Origin: Stramenopiles sp. TOSAG23-6
Taxonomy: Eukaryota > Sar
NCBI GenBank assembly: GCA_900128565.1
Contig: LT635934.1
Span: 1 to 42,912 of the forward strand
Length of the DNA stretch: 42,912 nucleotides
Direction: 5' to 3'
Shown piece after piece: positions 13,041 to 39,295 of the stretch (within the stretch, counting starts at the first letter, position 1; each line of letters opens with the position of its first letter). The notes beneath the pieces were generated by a model. That model made no database searches and was not told where the DNA came from. It saw nothing but the letters and a program-made list of their open reading frames with translations. A program made the translations under genes and the position numbers.

Positions 13041-13298
13041 GCGACAGCTATAAGTATATGAACTGACGAAAATAATACATACTACTTGCTTTTACTTCAT
13101 GGACCTCACCTCCTCAAATGTAGTACTACGGTAGTAGTAGCCTAGTAGCTGTTGACAAAAGTAGCAAATTTTTGATTCACGGTTACTTTTTGTTGTTTTT
13201 GACTACCGAAGTAAGTCGTGTCTTTTACGGGTTGTACGTTTATAGTACTAGACTGCTATAGATTGTCTGCACACAGGCCGCAACAACAGGTACAGCGA
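13041..13298. promoter_or_regulatory. Divergent promoter BIVM-like / BBC1-type gene
   Basis: This is 258 bp between the two ATGs. It contains a TAG/CTA-rich imperfect palindrome (GTAGTACTACGGTAGTAGTAG, about 13119-13145) capable of hairpin formation. No standard motif was recognised. Confidence 0.35.
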
Positions 13299-14240
13299 AT
13301 GTCAGCACCACCTCCAGATCCAGCAAGGCTTCCCAAGAATCAAGGCTACAGCTGGGGATCCTCAACGTCTATTTCCACAAAGCACGTTAACGGTAATATT
13401 GTTAAAACAACGATAACGAAATATAAGGTCACACTTACCGATGGTACTCTCTACGACTCGTGGGAGGAGGTAAAAACTGAAGATTGTGGTTCTGTGAAAA
13501 CAAAAGAAATGAGTGTAGTACCTGGAACAAAGGATAAAAAGAAACAAAGCGTAGCACCTCCAGATCCATCAAGACTTCCCAAGAATCAAGGCTACAGCTG
13601 GGGATCCTCAACATCTACTTCCACAAAGCACGTTAACGGTAATATTGTTAAAACAACGATAACGAAATATAAGGTCACACTTACCGATGGTACTCTCTAC
13701 GACTCGTGGGAGGAGGTAAAAACTGAAGATGGGGGTTCTGTGGAAAAAGAAGCTCTTGGTGTATTACCTGGAAAAGATGATCTTCAAAAACAATGCACTC
13801 TTTGCCTCAATAAAGGTTTGCCTTTAAATGAAAAGTTATTAAAATTTGTTTACTCAAAACATTCACAAAAAATCGGAGATGGGCAGTGTTATGCAACAGC
13901 TGCTGTAACTTTGTCTAGTATTGGTGCACGAGAAGCTCGTGGCTTCGATTTTGGAAAGAAGATAAAAGAGACTGAAATTTATCCTGGTGATATTATTCAA
14001 TTCAGCTGGGCTAAATTTAAAGGTAATAGTGTGGGAGGTGGTACGTATCAGAAAAATTGTGGAAATGCCGCTTCAAATGGAGCACATACAGCCATTGTTT
14101 ATTCTTACGATGTCAATACCCGATCTGTATGTACACTAGAACAGAATATGAATAATATATTAAAGGTATGCTTTGGTGGATATGCATTCGAGGACATGTA
14201 TGAAGGTAGTTTTGATGTATTTAGACCAGTTGCGAAATAA
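13299..14240 (+). CDS. BBC1/AIM3-type papain-like C-terminal domain protein with duplicated N-terminal repeat
   Basis: The product has 313 residues from the first in-frame ATG (MSAPPPDP); the frame is open further upstream but only from a GTG. The C-terminal half (about 180-313) shows GDGQCYATAAVTLSSIGA, PGDIIQFSWAKF, GAHTAIVYSYD and VCTLEQNMN before a final FDVFRPV. This order matches the cysteine-protease-like domain at the C-terminus of fungal Bbc1/Aim3, with a Cys and a His in the expected places. The N-terminal half is two nearly identical copies of an 82-residue unit (P-P-D-P-x-R-L-P-K-N-Q-G-Y, then a Thr-rich strand pattern) resembling a small beta-rich actin-patch or coat-associated repeat, though I do not recognise it. 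Role inferred only: cytoskeletal or ubiquitin-independent scaffolding. Convergent with RNase H2C. Confidence 0.65.
   Translation: MSAPPPDPARLPKNQGYSWGSSTSISTKHVNGNIVKTTITKYKVTLTDGTLYDSWEEVKTEDCGSVKTKEMSVVPGTKDKKKQSVAPPDPSRLPKNQGYSWGSSTSTSTKHVNGNIVKTTITKYKVTLTDGTLYDSWEEVKTEDGGSVEKEALGVLPGKDDLQKQCTLCLNKGLPLNEKLLKFVYSKHSQKIGDGQCYATAAVTLSSIGAREARGFDFGKKIKETEIYPGDIIQFSWAKFKGNSVGGGTYQKNCGNAASNGAHTAIVYSYDVNTRSVCTLEQNMNNILKVCFGGYAFEDMYEGSFDVFRPVAK
13309..13742 (+). repeat. Recent 246-bp-period tandem duplication in the BBC1-type gene
   Basis: The copies are 13309-13496 and 13555-13742, 188 bp each with six differences (about 97% identical). A 58-bp spacer between them is not repeated on the same scale. 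The period is 82 codons, so the frame is maintained. Two adjacent substitutions change Cys to Gly near the end of the unit. Confidence 0.95.
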
Positions 14241-15221: not shown

Positions 15222-17634
15222 ATGCTTGACGAGTCCGATGATGATATTCCCCTCAGTATGATGTCGAAGAAAGTCAAGAAAAAGGAAAAACATGCCGACT
15301 CGTCTGATTCTGAAGATGATAAGCCCTTGAGTAAGTTGAGTGTTATTAAGCAAATTGGAAAAAAAGTGAAGAAAGAAAAACTTGTCACGAAGGATCAAAA
15401 TAGTAAGGTCTTTACTAGTCCAAGTGTTATTAAGCAAATTGGAAAGAAAGTGAAGAAGGAGAAAAAGGTGAAAAAAGAGAAAAAGCACAAGAAGGAAAAG
15501 AAGCACAAGAAGGAGAAAAAGCACAAGAAAGATAAAAAGCACAAGAAAGAAAAGAAATCATCCAAAAAACGATTATTATCCTCAATTTCGAAGAATTCTC
15601 CAAAAATAACAAAAAAACGACGAAAGAGTAGCACATCTAAAGGCAAGAGTGGTCCCCAGCGAAGCATGAAAGTGATAAATGAGACAGAAATGCTTGACGG
15701 CGCCATGAAAGCTCACAAGTGGTGGGAAGATCCACCTACTAAAGAGGTGATGGGAGATAATGGTGAAATGTTTTTGCCTCAGTGGTCTTCAATGGAACAT
15801 ATTGGTGTTATATTTCCTGAGGCGCACGATTACTCGTATGATGACAATGGTAATCGTGTCTGTATGAAATATGATGGTCAGGATGTTGATCTTACTCTTG
15901 AGCAAGATGAAGTTGCGTATTTTTACGCTAAATCTTTAACTGCGATGCAACTTCAAAAAGAAGAAACAGCAAAGATATTTAACAAAAACTTTTTTGCTGG
16001 TTTCAAGAAAGTTTTGGGTAGAGGCCACATAATAAAAGATTTCAAAAAGTGTGACTTCACTCCTATCAAAGCTAGGTTGGACGTGTTGCGTGACCGGAAG
16101 AAAGAATCCAGTAAAGCTGTAAAGAATGCCGAAAAGGAGAAACGCGCTGTGGTGCAACGTACGTATGGTTATGCTTTAGTCAACGGTCGTGTCCAACGAG
16201 TCGGAAATACTACTATTGAGCCTCCAGGACTTTTCAGAGGTCGTGGTATTCATCCTAAAATGGGAACTATTAAGAATCGTGTACCACCAGAAGCTATCGC
16301 TATTAATGTATCTCGATGTGCTGCTGTGCCGAAATGTCCCGTCCCAGGACATGCTTGGGGTGCTATCGTACACAAACCTGATGTCACATGGCTGGCTATG
16401 TGGAAAGAGAACATCAATGGCAGTGTTAAATATGTTTACTTAAATAGTGGTTCTGCATTCAAGGGAAAATCAGATAGATCTAAATACGAGAAAGCGCGAA
16501 AGTTGAAAAATTATATCTCGAAAATTCGCAAGGATTATCGAAAAAAACTTACTGCCAAAAATTTAGAAACTGCACAACTTGCGACAGCTATGTATGTTGT
16601 TGTTTTTTTCAATTTCGAATTTATTTTTTTCATACGAAATTTCGTACCTAACAAAAACAAAAGAAAATATTTTTTTACAATACATGTGGGTCATTGATGT
16701 ATTAGCACTTCGTGTTGGTGGAGAAAAGGGCGAAGACGAAGCTGATACTGTTGGATGTTGCTCTTTACGAAAGGAACATTTTACGTTTGAACCAACGGAG
16801 GATACACCATATCCTTCTGATATGTGTTTTACGCTTGATTTTCTTGGTAAAGATTCTATGCGTTATTTTGAAGTAATTGACTTAGGTACCGAACGACACC
16901 AGGTTGACGGTATTGGAGCCAAAGTGTTTGCTAATATTAAGAGATTTTGGAAAAAGGCCAAGAAACCTGGTGATGATATATTTGATAGACTCAATCCGTC
17001 ACTATTGAACGACCATTTAAGAAGTCTCATGCCTGGATTAAGCGCCAAGGTATTTCGTACTTTTAATGCTTCAATCACATTAGAAGAAAAGTTACCGCTT
17101 CGTATACCTTCTGATCTAGCTGGCGCTGAACAGTTGCTTATATATAATGCCGCTAATCGTGATGTGGCTATTTTATGTAATCATCAACGGTCGGTTCCTG
17201 CTAGTTTCGATAGTAGTTTCAAGAAGTTGAAAGATCGTGAAAAGTTGAAAAGCAAACAACTCTCCGAATTAAAGGAACATCTCAAGCGACGTAAAAAAGG
17301 TAAGGACATTAAACTACAGCCTAAGGAAATGCCAACTGATAAAGCAGAAAGAGCAAAAATCTCACATCTATACAAGTCTCAGCCAGATCCATCAAAGTTG
17401 CGCAATCGTATTGCAACATTCGAAAAACAGGTAAAGAATATGCGCGATAACATAAAAAACAAAGATGACAACAAGACAGTTTCTCTCTCTACATCAAAGA
17501 TTAATTATATGGATCCTCGCGTGACTGTTGCATGGTGCAAGCGTAATGAAGTTCCTATAGAGCGTGTATTTCCAAAAGCTTTGCAAGATAAATTTCCTTG
17601 GGCTATGAGTGTCCCTGAGTCATGGAGATTTTAA
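15222..17634 (+). CDS. TOP1: DNA topoisomerase I (type IB), two coding segments
   Basis: The enzyme relaxes supercoils by nicking one strand through a 3'-phosphotyrosine. Joining 15222-16589 to 16684-17634 gives 772 residues, close to human TOP1 (765). The N-terminus is acidic, then has repeated KKEKKH units (about 80-115) forming a basic nuclear-targeting tail. The core includes WWEDPPTKEVMGDNGE, IEPPGLFRGRGIHPKMG, and LALRVGGEKG...ADTVGCCSLR. A linker coiled coil follows, and the catalytic Tyr lies in SKINYMDPRVTVAWCKRNEVPIERVFPKALQDKF. The first in-frame ATG is 15222; the upstream start is TTG. The two halves are in different frames, separated by an unusual 94-nt interruption described separately. 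It is convergent with eIF3k. Confidence 0.93.
16590..16683 (+). other. 94-nt intervening sequence in TOP1 without GT-AG borders
   Basis: The protein family requires ATAM directly followed by WVIDVLALR (human has ALYFIDKLALR at this site). The only join giving this removes exactly 94 nt between two ATGT direct repeats (16590-16593 and 16684-16687). Equivalent cut choices are AT...AC, GT...AT or AT...GT; none is GT-AG. The one AG in the right area (16662-16663), paired with GTATGT at 16592, removes 72 nt and leaves the wrong frame. The ends are inverted too (ATGTATGTTGT against ACAATACAT), and the middle has a perfect palindrome TACGAAATTTCGTA at 16633-16646. A sequencing indel is the main alternative. 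Confidence 0.7.
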
Positions 17635-26305: not shown

Positions 26306-27202
26306 TCATGATCCTTTGCTTTTCAAGTCATTGAACCATGGGTGCTGTAATGCTGCTTTAGCAGAAATACGTTTCGTTGGATCAAACATCATCATTTTAG
26401 TCAACAAATCTATGCCGTTCGCATCTAGCTGGGGACACTTTGCGGTTAGATCCTGAGTTGGCCATTTAGGAAATGATGCTTTGAAATCTGGAAGAGCAGA
26501 GACGCCCGGCCAAATCTTTTCTGTTGGTGTTCCAAGGAGACGGAATATGCGAAAGAGCATGTCAATTTCAGAATCACCTGGCCAAAGAGGTCGCTTATTT
26601 GCCAACTCCGCCATAATACAACCAATTGACCATATGTCAACACCAGTGGAATAATGACGAGATCCAAGAAGAATTTCTGGTGCACGATACCAGAGTGTAA
26701 TAACCTCATGTGTGTATGCCCTGACTGGAATACAGAACGCTCGAGCAAGACCAAAATCAGCAAGTTTCAAACGACCGTTCATATCAATTAGTAAATTTTG
26801 TGGCTTCAAATCACGGTGCATTACACCACGTTTATGACAAAAATCAATACCTAAGAGCATTTGACAAACATACGATTTAACAAGCATTGGTTTTAAATAC
26901 TTGGTTTTGACATTATCCATATGTTTCTTTAAATCTTGGTCAAGGTATTCGAAGACAAGGTATAAACGATTATCACTGTGCTCAACATCTTTGAGTTTTA
27001 CGACATTTGGGTGCTCAAGAGTTTTTAACACAGAAATTTCACGAAGAGCAGTAGATGGCACACCTTCATCCTCTACTTCCAGGCGGATCTTTTTCAATGC
27101 TACAGTCTCTCCAGTTTCGATATTCTTGGCTTTATATACTACTCCATATGTTCCTTCACCGAGAGGTTTTTCAATCTTCTCATACTTGGCAAGACAACTC
27201 AT
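26306..27202 (-). CDS. CDK1: Cyclin-dependent kinase, CDK1/CDKA type with PSTALRE helix
   Basis: This is a Ser/Thr kinase expected to drive cell-cycle transitions with cyclins. At 298 residues it matches CDK1/CDC2 (297). It has the GEGTYG loop with Thr18/Tyr19 (inhibitory Wee1-type sites), catalytic Lys37, the cyclin-binding helix PSTALRE at 49-55 (PSTAIRE in animals and most plants), HRDLKPQN (129-136), DFG (149-151) and activating Thr164 in the segment [15 protein letters not shown]. The CDK1-like features LARAF and PVRAYTHEV are present. PSTALRE occurs in some stramenopile and alga CDKA paralogs. The divergent promoter contains an E2F-like site and a CACGTG box. Whether it is the mitotic or a G1/S CDK cannot be decided here. 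Confidence 0.93.
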
Positions 27203-32932: not shown

Positions 32933-35900
32933 ATGAATATGTTTGAGGTGAGAAGTGAGTCTTCGGATTCATTCCAGTCTTCGGAATCATTCCAAGAAGT
33001 TGACGAATTAGCTAGTAATATAAAGTTGGGAGCTAGTGTTATTCCTGATATTCAGCATTCTTCATCAATCCATATGGAGAGTAAAAGAAATACATTCAAT
33101 CAAATATATAGATCAAATCTTCTTGAGAAAAAACTAAGTTGGAAAAGTGGACAGGTAAAGTCCCTTAAAGCAAAAATAAAAGCACTAGAAGTGAAATCTA
33201 ACTATGGAAAAAGACAGCATGCTTTGGGAATGAAAAACATGGAAGATAAAGTTAAAGATCTGGTCAAAACTAATCACAAAACCATTAAGGAAATAACTGA
33301 TTTGCATCAGCTTGAACTTGATAAATTAAAATATATTCATGAGAAAAAGATCATTGAGCTTGGTAACGAATTGCTTCAGAAGCACGCTGAAGAAAAAAAG
33401 CTTATTAGGAAATCTACGAATGAAATGTTAGAATTGAAGGATCAAACTATAAAAAAACAAGATCGGGAATTATATGAAGAACGATCACAAAATTGGAAAT
33501 TAGAAATCAATAATAAGGAGTTATCGAATTCTCATAGTTTAACTTTAAAAAGAAAGATAGAAAATCATCACGACGAAATTGTTTCACTTTCAAAGAAACA
33601 ACAACTATCACTAGAACAGCTTAAAACACTTCACGAATTAGAAAATTCAGGTAAGATACAGAACTTGAAGGCGAAACAGAGCGAGGTAATTCGGTTGTTA
33701 AAAATGAGAATACGTGCTGAGGAAGAAGCACACGAGGACACTAGAAAAAAGAGTAGCACTGCAATGGCTGAAGCTCATGGAATTCACAATAGTGCAATTC
33801 AAACACTATCAAAAAAACACCAGCAGGAAACTGAATCATTGAAAAAACAAAATGAACTTCAGTTGGCAATTTCAATGAAAAACCAAGCTAAAACACATCG
33901 ATCAGAAATTGACCGATTGAAGTCTCTTTCAGAAAATGATATTGGTCACTTTGAGGAACTTCTGAAACGCTCAGATGCCCAGGCTAAATTTCATAAGAGT
34001 AAAGTAAAAGAATGTGAAGAGAAACACGATGCTGTTTTAAAAAAACATGTAAATACATTAAATGAAAAAGAAAAGATGTCAGCAGATCTTCTCCGCAAAA
34101 CGATAAATCTGCATACAGAAGAGATTTCGAAAATCAAAGCTGAATACGAAAACAAACAAAATGCTGCTGTGCGAGAAATAGTAGAAAGTAATTCGTTAGA
34201 AATGCAACAAATGAAAGATGTAGCGCGCAAAACGAAAATAGAAATGGATGAAATAAAAATCAAGCACAAAGCTGAAGTTGATTCTCTTAATTGTAGCGTG
34301 GATGAAGTTAAAATACTTTATAACAAAGCCCTTCAAAAGCATGATGTAACAATGAACAAACAGAAACAACAACATGGGAATGATTTATTGGAGGTGGAAA
34401 GGAAATACGAAGAGAAGCTGTCCGTTTCAGCAAAGAAATTGCACTCTGATCATATCAAGAAAACGAGTAATCTTTCTGAGATACACTATAAAAAAATTGA
34501 AGAACTTGAAACTAAATTGAGAGACTGTGAAATAAATTGCGCTGCTGTACAGCAAGCTAAAGCAATAGAATTGAGTCAGAAAGATATCGCTCACAAAAAA
34601 GCTATGGCAGAATTATCTACTGCCCATATTGGGGCGATGGCAACTGCAGCCATCAAGTCAAATGGTGAATTGGAACATACAGTTGCCGAGATTTCCGATA
34701 AACACTTGTCGGAAACTAAGCGTATTACATCGCTGGCGGAACAGGACAAACAGAATTATTTAGACTTACTTGAAAAATGCAGATCAGAAACTTTGAAATA
34801 CAAGGCCGACGTTGAAGTGAATAAGCTCAATGATGCTAAAACATTAGAAAGACATGCAAAAATACTCTTAGATAAAGAAAAGGATCATGAAGCAACATTA
34901 CATGAAGTAAAACAAGTACATGAAAAACATCTTTCAAAACAAGCAAACGAACATGATTTAAAATGTTTAGAACTAGCAGAAAAATTCAAGAAACAGCAAG
35001 ATGACACATTATGTGAACTCCAAATTGAACGTAAAAGACATGGAAATACTTTATCAGAGTGGGAATCGAAATATAATCATGCTATACAAAAACATAAAAT
35101 ATCTGAACAGCGCATGGAAAATGCACACCACTTAGCCTTGGAAGAAATCCGTAAAGAGTTAAATGAAAAAAATACTTTCTTAGCAGCTAAATATTCTAGA
35201 GAAAATGCTGTTTTAGTGAATGATCTCAAAAGCATTCACGAAAAGCAGATTAGATCACTCCAGTCAGAACAATATACTGCGATAAACAAACTTAAAGATA
35301 ATCATGCGAAGGACGTAAAGGGATTAGAATTAGAATTACGAAATTGGGAAATTAGGTGCAACAAAAACAACAACACACACGCAGCAATGATCCGTGGTAC
35401 AGAAACAGCCCAACGAGATGCAATTCACACATTACGTCAAAAGCACGAAGTGGAACTATCTGATGTGGTAAGAAAGTATCATGGAGAACGCAAAGTTACA
35501 ATAACTGATTTGAAAAGCAAACATAGAGCAGAGGTCGAAGCTTTGAATACTAAAAATATAAAATTACAAAATGAATCTATTGAATGGGAAGAAAAGTATG
35601 CTAATTTGATGAATTCTACATCAATAAATAGTCGAGAGCAAGATAAAAAGCTTCACAAACAAATCTCCGAGTTGGAGGAATACCGACGCACAATTGCAGA
35701 GATGTCAGTGAAGCATCAAAAGAAAATTACGGATTTGACTTTAATTTCCAAAGATTGGGAAGAGAAACATACTAAGATGATGGCAAAATATCATATTTCG
35801 ATGAAGGATAAAGAAGATGAACACGCTACTGCTTTAGACTTACATTTGAATACTTTGAAGGAGACCAAGGAAGAGCATCAAAAGATTAAGACTGAAATGA

Positions 35901-36541
35901 TTGCGAAACATCATCATGAACTAGAAAAACAAAGGGGTGAGTTTGCGATTGGTCTCAAAAAGGAACTCAATCGTATGGCTAAAACACATTCAAAGGTAAT
36001 GAAACAACATGAAGCAGCTTCAAAAAAAGATCAAAAAAGGGTTGATGCTATCATACGTGAACACAATAATGAACTGAAGCAGTACAATAAATCAATTGGA
36101 TCATTTTGGGAACATCAAGAAAGGTTCCAAAAAGATGCAATTAATGCAATATTAACAAAATACGAAGCTGAACTTGAAATATCAATGAAAAAGTATAGAG
36201 GAGATGTTAACCTAGCAATTCGTGAAGTTGTAGGGAGACACACAAAAGAGATATCAAGAAATATATCTAAAGCAGTTATACATTGGCTTGCAATCGAATC
36301 TCTGAAAGAATCGCACAAGAAAGAATTTGACTCATTTCTGAAGAATAGATCTGAGTCATATAAACCCTCAGATGTGAATTCTAAAGAAACTAATTACGCT
36401 GATGCTGTAGATAAACTTCAGAAAAAGTATCAACCTGAAGTACTAAATTTCAAAAAAAGTAATCTCGCCTCAGCACTTCAATGTGAAGTAATAGCAAATA
36501 CAACAGAATGGGTCAAAGAACGGAAGTTTGATACAGGTTGA
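32933..36541 (+). CDS. Long coiled-coil protein, unrecognised
   Basis: The 1202-residue product is almost entirely helical and charged from about residue 60 to 1150. Repeating patterns such as KHxxE(I/L)xxLK and EEKHxxxLxKHxxxLxEKE recur, and His is unusually frequent. There is no motor, membrane or metal-binding domain. The N-terminal 55 residues are Ser-rich (SESSDSFQSSESFQEVDE, an imperfect duplication of SSESFQ). This type of protein often forms fibres in flagellar roots, basal bodies or the Golgi; which one cannot be told from the sequence. A 55-nt segment at 33599-33653 is exactly repeated on the opposite strand at the right edge of the window. It is divergent from the EF-hand gene and convergent with the chromodomain gene. 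Confidence 0.8.
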   Translation: MNMFEVRSESSDSFQSSESFQEVDELASNIKLGASVIPDIQHSSSIHMESKRNTFNQIYRSNLLEKKLSWKSGQVKSLKAKIKALEVKSNYGKRQHALGMKNMEDKVKDLVKTNHKTIKEITDLHQLELDKLKYIHEKKIIELGNELLQKHAEEKKLIRKSTNEMLELKDQTIKKQDRELYEERSQNWKLEINNKELSNSHSLTLKRKIENHHDEIVSLSKKQQLSLEQLKTLHELENSGKIQNLKAKQSEVIRLLKMRIRAEEEAHEDTRKKSSTAMAEAHGIHNSAIQTLSKKHQQETESLKKQNELQLAISMKNQAKTHRSEIDRLKSLSENDIGHFEELLKRSDAQAKFHKSKVKECEEKHDAVLKKHVNTLNEKEKMSADLLRKTINLHTEEISKIKAEYENKQNAAVREIVESNSLEMQQMKDVARKTKIEMDEIKIKHKAEVDSLNCSVDEVKILYNKALQKHDVTMNKQKQQHGNDLLEVERKYEEKLSVSAKKLHSDHIKKTSNLSEIHYKKIEELETKLRDCEINCAAVQQAKAIELSQKDIAHKKAMAELSTAHIGAMATAAIKSNGELEHTVAEISDKHLSETKRITSLAEQDKQNYLDLLEKCRSETLKYKADVEVNKLNDAKTLERHAKILLDKEKDHEATLHEVKQVHEKHLSKQANEHDLKCLELAEKFKKQQDDTLCELQIERKRHGNTLSEWESKYNHAIQKHKISEQRMENAHHLALEEIRKELNEKNTFLAAKYSRENAVLVNDLKSIHEKQIRSLQSEQYTAINKLKDNHAKDVKGLELELRNWEIRCNKNNNTHAAMIRGTETAQRDAIHTLRQKHEVELSDVVRKYHGERKVTITDLKSKHRAEVEALNTKNIKLQNESIEWEEKYANLMNSTSINSREQDKKLHKQISELEEYRRTIAEMSVKHQKKITDLTLISKDWEEKHTKMMAKYHISMKDKEDEHATALDLHLNTLKETKEEHQKIKTEMIAKHHHELEKQRGEFAIGLKKELNRMAKTHSKVMKQHEAASKKDQKRVDAIIREHNNELKQYNKSIGSFWEHQERFQKDAINAILTKYEAELEISMKKYRGDVNLAIREVVGRHTKEISRNISKAVIHWLAIESLKESHKKEFDSFLKNRSESYKPSDVNSKETNYADAVDKLQKKYQPEVLNFKKSNLASALQCEVIANTTEWVKERKFDTG
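33599..33653 (+). repeat. 55-nt segment identical to the right edge of the window
   Basis: These bases, encoding QQLSLEQLKTLHELENSG, equal the reverse complement of 42858-42912 without a mismatch. The identity ends at GGTA on this side and is cut by the window edge on the other. Confidence 0.95.
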
Positions 36542-36675: not shown

Positions 36676-38055
36676 TTAATTACGTAACACAGCAGATGCT
36701 ACTAAAGTTACCAAACCACACCAATACAGTGACATTAATGCCAACTGTGAAAAGGCTGGTTTCAAGGTAGTTTGAATCGTTGAATACGGAGAATTTTTGT
36801 CAGCCAGAATAAAAAGATGAGCAGTTGATAATGCTGCAGCACCAGTTAAGCCAAGCCACTGTGGAAGCGATTCTTGTTTTAAAGAAATTGGATGTCCGTA
36901 ACCAATTCTTGCAGCCGCGCGCCAACACATACCCCCAATAACACCAAAGAAAGTACAAAGTATAGCATCCAAACGAAAATCACCTAATCTGGTGGACATG
37001 AACAATAACATTAGCGGTACAATGGTGATTAACATTAGAGTGGCTTCAAATGGAACGAGTTCACCTTTGTGTGTCGCTGAGTTAAATGCAAGAGCAAAAG
37101 CAAAATTTCCAACTGTGTAGGACATAAGCATTACAATAAAATTCGAAGTTTCATCACTTCTAAGTGGATTGATGTTAATATGCTGTAATATTTCTGCTGC
37201 AATATACCACACCATTCCAATGGCAATCCATCTTGCGTATTTTTCTTTTTCTCCCTTGACTTTAAGCACTGCAAAAAGAGAAATTAGGGATGGAACTACC
37301 ATTGTGGAAAGACGAATCCAACGCAACACTGACTGTGCTCCTTTCAATGTACCATCTTCGTACATTTTTGCAACATTTGTTTCATGCACACCATTGGTAG
37401 TGTCTTCCCAACCTGTTTCACTTGGGCTGTCCAAAATATTTGCAGGCCACCACCAAGGGCCCTGAGCGCCGTGAGTTTTTAGTGTTCTTTCAAGACCTCC
37501 GTGTACAAGAAAAGCACAGAGAACGTTTGATACAATACAAAAACCTAAAAATGTAAATAATAGAATTGCTCTTACATTAATACCTTCTGATATATCGTGG
37601 AATGAGGGCACTCTTCCTCTTGATTCTTTGGGTGTCTTCACTGATTTCTTAGTTTTGGTTTTGGGTGTTCGTTTCTTGAGTTTTGGAGACTCAGACTGTG
37701 GAGATGATTGTTTTGAAGATGAAGATTTACGAAGGGGTGTCTTCGATCGACTTCGCTTGGTTGGTGTTTTCTTGGGTGTCCCCTTTTTAGATTTTATTGG
37801 TGTTTTCTTGGGTGTCCCCTTTTTAGATTTTATTGGTGTTTTCTTGCCTGCTCCTTTTTTAGCCTTCAATTTTTTTTCGAACTCTTGGATATCCTTCTTC
37901 ATACCATCGGATATCATGTGTTTCCGAGTTTCCCATGTGTTGTCCGAAGTGGAATAACCTTCCCATTTGATCAAATATTGAATAACCCCTTTATGCTTTC
38001 TTTTATCCAGGATTTTTTCAATAGTAAAGTATTCATCTGCATCTGCATTTCCCAT
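36676..38055 (-). CDS. Chromodomain fused to a polytopic membrane domain
   Basis: The 459-residue protein has three parts. Residues 8-62 form a chromodomain (EYFTIEKILDKR, IQYLIKWEGYSTSDNTWE) with candidate methyl-lysine cage residues Tyr9/Phe10, Trp31 and Tyr34, close to HP1. Residues about 65-150 are basic, with repeated KKTPIKSKKGTP and SPKK-like units that should bind DNA or act as nuclear signals. From about 157 to the end there are about eight hydrophobic spans. The last segments (GAAALSTAHLFILADKNSPY and LALMSLYWCGLVTLVASAV) weakly resemble TMEM86/YhhN lysoplasmalogenases; that assignment is tentative. I infer an inner nuclear membrane protein tethering methylated chromatin, like the plan of lamin B receptor. 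The frame is uninterrupted, so the fusion is not an annotation join. E2F-like site upstream. Confidence 0.8.
   Translation of the reverse strand: MGNADADEYFTIEKILDKRKHKGVIQYLIKWEGYSTSDNTWETRKHMISDGMKKDIQEFEKKLKAKKGAGKKTPIKSKKGTPKKTPIKSKKGTPKKTPTKRSRSKTPLRKSSSSKQSSPQSESPKLKKRTPKTKTKKSVKTPKESRGRVPSFHDISEGINVRAILLFTFLGFCIVSNVLCAFLVHGGLERTLKTHGAQGPWWWPANILDSPSETGWEDTTNGVHETNVAKMYEDGTLKGAQSVLRWIRLSTMVVPSLISLFAVLKVKGEKEKYARWIAIGMVWYIAAEILQHININPLRSDETSNFIVMLMSYTVGNFAFALAFNSATHKGELVPFEATLMLITIVPLMLLFMSTRLGDFRLDAILCTFFGVIGGMCWRAAARIGYGHPISLKQESLPQWLGLTGAAALSTAHLFILADKNSPYSTIQTTLKPAFSQLALMSLYWCGLVTLVASAVLRN
37763..37834 (-). repeat. 36-bp tandem repeat encoding the basic linker
   Basis: Two exact 36-bp units (37763-37798 and 37799-37834) plus a partial, diverged third encode the 12-residue repeat KSKKGTPKKTPI between the chromodomain and the membrane spans. 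Confidence 0.9.
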
Positions 38056-38287: not shown

Positions 38288-39295
38288 ATGAAAAGCATTT
38301 ATCAATGTAATGTAGTAGGAGTATTCTTTGTAGCTCTTTTTTTTCTTTTAAGCCATCAATATATTTTAAATCATAAAAATGTTGTGGAACTCAAACTTGC
38401 ATTCTGTCCCGGGATAGGTACAAACAATCGTGGAATAATTTATAACAAAGTCCCAAAATCTGCAAGTACTACAGTTGTTGAGTGGATGAAAATACGAAGT
38501 ACAGAAGTATCAAAACTTAATAGTGACAAGCATTCTAATATTCTGATTCGTGTCTTTGGTAACCCAAAGCATAGATGGTTTACCCCGTATCAAGAAAAAG
38601 AACTAATAGTGCACTTTACACGCCTTACTAAAGTTTATCCAAAGTTTGTATATATCCGGCACATGTTTTGGCCCAATTTTGCCCTCTATAGTCAAAACAA
38701 ACCTACAATGCTAACAGTGGTCCGCCACCCTGTTGATCGTTGTATTTCTCGATATTATTATGAAATTTCAAGTGGTAGATTGAAAAATGAAAGTCTTGAT
38801 GATTGTATATTATCTGATCGTTGTCGTTTTAAAGAGTGGAATATTCTTGAAGCGAAACGAGAATATAGTTCTTCAAATGAAGATTCGATGCTGCTTTTAT
38901 TGGATGAATGTAATAATTATTTGACCCGTTGGTTTTGCGGTCATAGTGCAGAATGTCATCCTAGTTCAAATCAAACAGCAGTGCAGTCAAACAAAAAAGC
39001 ATTACTCTTGGCCAAGAAAAGAGTCCAAGAAGAATATATTTACGTTGGTTTGGCAGAAGATTTAGTAAATAGCCTTGTTGTTATTCAAAAGATGATGCCA
39101 ACATATTTCGGTAGCAATACTCTCTGGAGAAACAAACATCTACCAAGAAAAAATATGAGTAATCGTCCACAGTCAGTGATGCGTAGAAGCGTATTAGAGC
39201 TATTGCTCAAATTAAATGAATTTGATGTGGAGTTATATGAATACATAAAGCAACTTCATTATAATAAATTGAAAAGGTGTCAAGTTCATTCATAA
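38288..39295 (+). CDS. Heparan sulfate/uronyl 2-O-sulfotransferase-like enzyme
   Basis: This is a type II Golgi membrane enzyme moving sulfate from PAPS to a glycan, of the HS2ST/UST family. The 335-residue protein has one N-terminal membrane anchor (VVGVFFVALFFLLS, about 9-22). The PAPS 5'-phosphosulfate loop is IYNKVPKSAST (51-61) and the 3'-phosphate motif is VVRHPVDRCISRYYY (144-158). A candidate catalytic His is in YIRHMFWPNF (125). The CGH motif WFCGHSAEC, conserved in 2-O-sulfotransferases, follows, then QEEYIYVGLAEDL. Whether the organism makes heparan-like glycans is unknown; the acceptor may be another polysaccharide. It is intronless, convergent with the TBC gene with only 39 bp between stops. 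Confidence 0.85.
   Translation: MKSIYQCNVVGVFFVALFFLLSHQYILNHKNVVELKLAFCPGIGTNNRGIIYNKVPKSASTTVVEWMKIRSTEVSKLNSDKHSNILIRVFGNPKHRWFTPYQEKELIVHFTRLTKVYPKFVYIRHMFWPNFALYSQNKPTMLTVVRHPVDRCISRYYYEISSGRLKNESLDDCILSDRCRFKEWNILEAKREYSSSNEDSMLLLLDECNNYLTRWFCGHSAECHPSSNQTAVQSNKKALLLAKKRVQEEYIYVGLAEDLVNSLVVIQKMMPTYFGSNTLWRNKHLPRKNMSNRPQSVMRRSVLELLLKLNEFDVELYEYIKQLHYNKLKRCQVHS

Follow-up and report, generated by a model that had tools for sequence, protein, structure and literature searches.

The window analyzed here, the whole 42,912-nucleotide contig LT635934.1 of Stramenopiles sp. TOSAG23-6, belongs to an assembly (label G000) of 8.03 Mb in 408 contigs and carries on its minus strand a gene for a 459-residue protein, P0001, in which an HP1-like chromodomain is followed by a strongly basic linker and a membrane half with eight predicted spans, related through intermediate sequences to the YhhN/TMEM86 superfamily. 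We propose that P0001, with a degenerate YhhN-type protein as its scaffold, may tether chromatin to the inner nuclear membrane in convergence with the lamin B receptor (LBR), and consider the chances of this reading to be about even.

The gene was first noticed in an original prediction made from the sequence alone, which claimed an uninterrupted frame at exactly window positions 36676 to 38055. Translation of both strands confirmed this frame and placed it on the minus strand, where the only stop was the terminal one; the plus strand over the same interval held 31 stops. With 11 other frames of the window as the training set and off-frame stops scored −1.5, codon log-odds were positive in frame for the chromodomain (0.120), the linker (0.059, the lowest of the three parts), and the membrane half (0.097), and negative in both shifted frames for all three. 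As homology to the relative P0003 begins at residue 165, within the first span, and codons 52 to 231 enclose no in-frame ATG, the membrane half lacks a separate start in this frame. The protein begins MGNADAD (window 38035-38055), which we take to be a possible N-myristoylation site that would add a second membrane contact at the N terminus.

Protein searches covered about 5.8 billion proteins, with only the roughly 8000 candidates that had the most words in common with the query scored in each, so that relatives may have been missed. Three relatives were returned in all: P0002 and P0003 (source label lgn, taken as Logan) and P0004 (ena). P0002, another sequence record that may stem from the same reads as the window, contained the same fusion at 97% identity, was 12 residues (one unit of a repeat in the linker) shorter, and differed at one other residue. 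P0003 (308 residues) and P0004 (237 residues) were 42% and 34% identical to P0001, and the longest contigs behind them measured 1397 and 1142 bases, so upstream parts of both may be missing. Because both halves of P0001 have homologues and a near-identical copy shares the join, the fusion is, on the evidence of these sequences, not due to chance. Searching the assembly with the whole protein and with P0003 revealed no other member of the membrane family, and no relative was found in viral contigs, prokaryote genomes (query, the alignment of the clade described below) or plasmids (query, P0003).

The chromodomain and the basic linker

In Pfam the chromodomain matched PF00385 (Chromo) over the whole profile (positions 1-53 of 53), scoring 54.5 bits where 25.1 is the cut-off. 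When residues 1-69 were searched against the sequences of solved chains in the PDB, CBX5 matched best, followed by CBX1, HP1, CDYL, and MPP8. The cage columns F10, W31, and Y34 were all aromatic, and the alignments to the CBX5, CBX1, and HP1 chains were ungapped there; the column of F10 is that of HP1 Tyr24. The description of the domain as HP1-like with a filled aromatic cage was thus upheld, except that of the cage residues named at the outset (Tyr9/Phe10, Trp31, and Tyr34) Tyr9 lies one position ahead of the cage column and drops out, leaving Phe10, Trp31, and Tyr34. Y9 and I48 instead occupy the clasp positions of the chromodomain, which hold Glu and Asp in CBX5 and Leu and Val in CDYL; looking for literature on clasp types yielded no paper. 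Pfam detected neither a chromoshadow domain (E≤1) nor a second chromatin domain above its cut-off in P0001; a match to Mtf2_C inside the chromodomain was weak and below cut-off. A retroelement chromodomain was set aside because HP1/CBX/CDY chains matched best among the PDB chains searched. A single-sequence AlphaFold model of the whole protein (pLDDT 47.3, pTM 0.31) was not used, and the cage residues are assigned by alignment.

The 92-residue linker contains 27 Lys and 6 Arg against 3 Asp or Glu, a net charge of +30, and ten S/T-P sites, six of which fit [S/T]-P-x-[K/R] and two of which are exact TPKK. Part of it is encoded by a 36-bp unit repeated in tandem 2.4 times with 100% matches. The basic linker of the original prediction is thus supported. 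A 22-base stretch of this unit had no other match in the assembly when up to two mismatches were allowed, which makes a chimera formed through the repeat unlikely.

The membrane half and its kinship to YhhN

Eight 19-residue Kyte-Doolittle peaks rose above 1.1, the lowest reaching 1.37, in line with the prediction of about eight hydrophobic spans; a 63-residue loop follows the first span. With the N terminus taken as inside, charge sums gave 44 Lys or Arg against 8 Asp or Glu inside and 10 against 13 outside, and the inside sum without the N-terminal linker was 9 against 4. These charges fit the predicted N-in topology, with the N and C termini both inside, like that of LBR.

A weak likeness to TMEM86/YhhN had been suggested, and it proved sound when intermediates were used. 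PF07947 (YhhN) matched neither the whole protein (E≤1), nor the membrane half alone (E≤10), nor the assembly (E≤0.1), a search in which the gene itself was missed. The membrane half and P0003 were identical in 128 of 303 columns (42%), and P0003 and P0004 both exceeded the PF07947 cut-off of 25.6 bits, scoring 40.9 and 31.9. Comparison by hhalign of the three clade rows (P0001, P0003, and P0004) with four bacterial YhhN sequences gave a probability of 89.9 and an E value of 1.7e-6 over 164 columns. Through P0003, P0004, and hhalign, and not directly, the membrane half is thus placed in the YhhN/TMEM86 superfamily by sequence. NCBIfam was uninformative, its best E value for P0001 being 0.22 (chance level) and P0003, P0004, and even Escherichia coli YhhN being without a match, and the PDB held no YhhN relative detectable by sequence. 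A second structure model was made from a shallow alignment of the membrane part with P0003, P0004, and 10 of 29 bacterial loci; in fold comparison the bundle predicted in this way showed a tentative resemblance to the seven-helix arrangement of G protein-coupled receptors (GPCR) and rhodopsin, and no YhhN structure was among the 50 matches listed for each comparison.

Kummer et al. (PMC11994398) changed TMEM86A positions K43, G81, D82, H104, G182, S189, D190, and Y213 each to alanine and found that all mutants except G81 (G87 in TMEM86B) affected activity. We located these positions in an alignment (A5) of 13 rows, consisting of the window protein, P0003, P0004, and 10 of the 29 loci (27 Aeromonas and 2 Vibrio) from a scan of Vibrio and Aeromonas for YhhN, the human numbering having been moved to Vibrio by motif and spacing and not by aligning the human proteins. 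In the order given above, the eight positions correspond to M252, A287, E288, N317, G405, A412, H413, and Y444. Of the eight proposed lysoplasmalogenase positions, two (G405 and Y444) are kept and six differ, so that the lysine, the histidine, and both aspartates are lost; the replacement of D82 by Glu is conservative. The lysine column may be off by two, although residues 246-264 contain no Lys in any case. P0003 keeps four of the eight (G81, G182, S189, and Y213), as does P0004 (G81, D82, G182, and Y213). In all three clade rows the lysine of K43 is missing, His104 is replaced by Asn, and Asp190 by His; the D190 column is not absolute, as it holds Asn in one of the ten bacterial rows (L046) and in E. 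coli YhhN. Because six of the eight proposed catalytic positions differ, the known lysoplasmalogenase activity seems unlikely, and the expectation of a different membrane enzyme, at least in the sense of a lysoplasmalogenase, was not sustained. Sixty-two columns are invariant among the three members, which have the stretches WRAxARIGYG and SLPQWLG in common. The exchanges at His104 and Asp190 define P0001, P0003, and P0004 as a YhhN clade whose pocket is altered and whose signature is WRAxARIGYG...SLPQWLG.

Weighing the proposed tether

In the mechanism that we propose, the chromodomain, on the nucleoplasmic side, would hold the methylated lysine of a histone tail within its aromatic cage; the linker would direct nuclear import, act as a flexible spacer, and bind DNA electrostatically, and its phosphorylation by cyclin-dependent kinase (CDK) at the S/T-P-x-K/R sites could release it at mitosis; and the eight-span YhhN-type bundle, probably no longer a lysoplasmalogenase, would be the anchor, a role that the six changed catalytic positions fit. 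The location, the histone ligand, and the phosphorylation switch are what we infer. There are two precedents: in yeast, a nuclear localization signal (NLS) with a disordered linker takes even polytopic membrane proteins to the inner nuclear membrane (PMC4695851), and CEC-4 of Caenorhabditis elegans is a chromodomain protein that anchors chromatin methylated at histone H3 lysine 9 (H3K9me) at the nuclear envelope (PMC5788517).

Other chromatin proteins of the assembly were surveyed. Six chromodomain matches were obtained, five of them above cut-off: the P0001 gene itself, an ankyrin-chromodomain protein, two in a single CHD1-like frame, and two on contig C5 (CHD naming by eye). The ankyrin-chromodomain protein (L003 106-1671, contig C112) consists of ankyrin repeats followed by a C-terminal chromodomain, has a signal-like hydrophobic N terminus, and resembles chloroplast SRP43 (cpSRP43) or MPP8 in reverse order. 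For SET there were seven matches, in whose frames no Pre-SET was seen by eye, one of the seven (L012) having been run through Pfam. Of two histone-fold matches, one was above cut-off and H2A-like by eye. A search of the assembly for ERG4/ERG24 was empty, but no control genome gave a match either, so that absence does not follow.

Several points weigh against the tether. A Suv39-type methyltransferase was not found in the assembly, in a Pre-SET search that had no positive control and matched intron-bearing genes exon by exon, and an H3 gene was not seen either, which says little given only two histone-fold matches; indeed, with H3 itself not found, these negatives for the H3K9 pathway mean little. 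Since the clasp residues Y9 and I48 do not decide between them, H3K9me, the mark named in the original prediction, and H3K27me are both possible ligands as far as the sequence can be read. Chromodomains can also read non-histone ligands. P0003 and P0004, both on short contigs, show no chromodomain. In the membrane half, the inside loop 325-332 carries no net charge, and the stretches common to the clade suggest that this half may do more than anchor.

This last point bears on the first of the alternatives, which are taken here in falling order of probability. The membrane half might still be active on another lipid or act as a lipid sensor, in which case the chromodomain would place that activity at chromatin or the state of the lipid would control binding; we regard this as unlikely. 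The invariant columns, the retention of G405 and Y444, the G-D pair in P0004, and the His for Asp190 in all three members suggest selection on the pocket side, and the tentative GPCR/rhodopsin likeness of the predicted bundle would agree with such a role, as does the modelling of YhhN as GPCR-like with conserved residues in a ligand site (PMC4602095). Nevertheless, five of the seven positions that affected TMEM86 activity (K43, D82, H104, S189, and D190, with D82 conservatively replaced by Glu) are replaced here (PMC11994398).

We hold it to be quite unlikely that the chromodomain reads a non-histone peptide at an endoplasmic reticulum or plastid face, as in chloroplast SRP43. The cpSRP43 chromodomain chain was among the PDB matches (7.7e-6), and the assembly encodes the ankyrin-chromodomain protein with its signal-like N terminus; however, CBX5, CBX1, HP1, CDYL, and MPP8 matched best, the top one by 21 bits over cpSRP43, the three cage columns are aromatic, and the +30 linker suits the nucleus and DNA. 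There is a slim chance that P0001 is a lipid-responsive heterochromatin tether, whose degenerate YhhN pocket, by its clade-specific residues (N317, H413, and WRAxARIGYG), would bind a lysolipid and not cleave it, with occupancy setting the grip on methylated chromatin at the inner nuclear membrane; if true, a lipid-metabolizing membrane protein would have been put to this use a second time, in parallel to LBR.

A recent, species-specific fusion that has no chromatin role or is decaying is improbable in our view. The fusion is known from near-identical copies only, and the two more distant relatives show no chromodomain, yet their short contigs may simply lack the upstream parts, P0001 has an intact frame, cage, and membrane motifs, and the searches of the assembly turned up no other copy of its membrane family. 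An assembly or gene-model artefact joining two genes is highly improbable: the linker has a tandem repeat, where assemblers can err, and the two fusion copies differ exactly there, but the 22-base piece of the repeat is unique in the assembly, the P0002 record has the same join, the membrane half is without its own start in the frame, and the linker has coding signal.

Surroundings of the gene and comparison with known systems

The features of the gene are collected in the table.

Features of the P0001 gene and its upstream region (window coordinates)
Feature	Position	Strand	Evidence or remark
Whole coding sequence, 459 residues	36676..38055	-	ATG 38055-38053, stop 36678-36676; fusion also in P0002
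YhhN-derived membrane region, residues 157-459	36679..37587	-	predicted spans 164-182, 246-264, 277-295, 306-324, 333-351, 364-382, 400-418, 438-456
Basic linker, residues 65-156	37588..37863	-	net +30, ten S/T-P sites; coding signal positive
36-bp tandem repeat, 2.4 copies	37761..37846	-	P0002 one unit (12 residues) shorter here
Chromodomain, residues 10-62	37870..38028	-	PF00385 E=1.1e-14; CBX5 chain E=1.4e-12
Cage residue Y34	37954..37956	-	alignments
Cage residue W31	37963..37965	-	alignments
Cage residue F10	38026..38028	-	alignment; HP1 chain 6asz_A also has Phe in this column
E2F-like TTTCCCGCCAAA	38162..38173	+	intergenic region common with divergent sulfotransferase gene; weak evidence

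On one side of the gene lies a coiled-coil-looking gene (32933-36541, plus strand) with no Pfam family above its cut-off, and on the other a divergent sulfotransferase gene (38288-39295, plus strand), the two divergent genes having a 232-bp intergenic region in common. The E2F-like site that had been offered as fitting a chromatin role is indeed present in this region; as an argument for that role it carries little weight, because at least one match to the 12-mer, with one mismatch allowed, occurred in 18 of 100 shuffles and because the site lies between two divergent genes. Some 9.5 kb separate the S/T-P-rich gene from a CDK-like gene (26306-27202, minus strand; Pkinase E=5.9e-75, CDK call by eye), a closeness that is probably coincidence.

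Elsewhere in the window, a 246-bp tandem duplication with 93% matches (13309-13773) lies within a frame (13218-14240) that has an AIM3/BBC1 cysteine-proteinase-fold domain. Positions 16586-16700 hold a member of a repeat family whose copies reach about 115 bp, starting with ATGTATGTT, with TTTCGTACCTAACAAA as core and ending near ACAATACATGT. Other copies, complete or partial and 77-90% identical to that of the window, were seen in L003, L006/L007, L009, L010, L011, L012, L013, and L014, where they interrupt coding frames; their appearance suggests introner elements that have short terminal inverted repeats. When the window copy was compared with 14 other assembly loci, some of them overlapping, 9 matched at E≤1e-4, and no second copy was found in the window at that threshold. 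The genes of the assembly mark it as that of a eukaryote, which is probably single-celled: it also contains kinesin-like and CHD-like genes and a mitochondrial-looking contig (L051, contig C136) with small-subunit ribosomal RNA and frames that we named atp9-like and nad2-like; because TGA stands at an expected Trp in the nad2-like frame (FHLWIADVYEGAPTNV), this mitochondrion probably reads TGA as Trp.

We found no paper describing a fusion of a chromodomain with YhhN or TMEM86 in a literature search whose scope left most subscription papers outside, and wider searches, which took in PMC7464478, gave no such fusion among the papers listed. Within the article texts covered, chromodomain and TMEM86 were mentioned together in one expression-profiling study, and chromodomain and YhhN in none.

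Among known proteins, HP1/CBX and CDY/MPP8 resemble the N-terminal part of P0001 in sequence and cage columns, whereas P0001 has no second chromatin domain above the Pfam cut-off and, with Y9 and I48 in the clasp columns, lacks the acidic pair of CBX5. CEC-4 likewise has an HP1-like chromodomain without a chromoshadow domain, and the anchoring of chromatin at the envelope shown for it is what we propose here, although the anchor of P0001 would be an eight-span membrane domain. The TMEM86A/B and YhhN lysoplasmalogenases (PF07947) have a homologous eight-span membrane domain with the equivalents of Gly405 and Tyr444, but differ from P0001 in the six catalytic positions, the long loop after span 1, and the N-terminal chromodomain. 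The finding also marks a YhhN clade that has lost lysoplasmalogenase residues.

The closest parallel in layout is LBR. According to PMC5617974, its Tudor and RS segments bind chromatin, its basic segments resemble a bipartite NLS, and it crosses the inner nuclear membrane with eight spans that end in a short nucleoplasmic tail. Both proteins thus have an N-terminal histone reader, a basic segment, eight spans, and a short inside tail, the spans and the tail being predicted in P0001. In contrast, LBR combines a Tudor domain with a sterol reductase, and P0001 a chromodomain with a YhhN-type bundle; Tudor and C14 sterol reductase domains were unmatched in P0001 (Pfam, E≤1), and its membrane half is probably devoid of lysoplasmalogenase activity, whereas that of LBR has sterol reductase activity. 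The fusion in LBR is said to be confined to Metazoa (PMC5630835), which supports the suggestion that the LBR-like layout of P0001, with reader, basic segment, eight predicted spans, and both termini predicted to be inside, arose independently. P0001 would then be a reader-plus-membrane tether made from different parts than LBR and seen in near-identical copies only. To our knowledge, little is known of links between envelope and chromatin in the lineage of P0001, and the protein, if the tether is real, would be a candidate for one. It would also be a second case, unrelated to LBR, in which a histone reader became fused to a member of a lipid-metabolism family, and evolution would twice have made such a protein a chromatin anchor.
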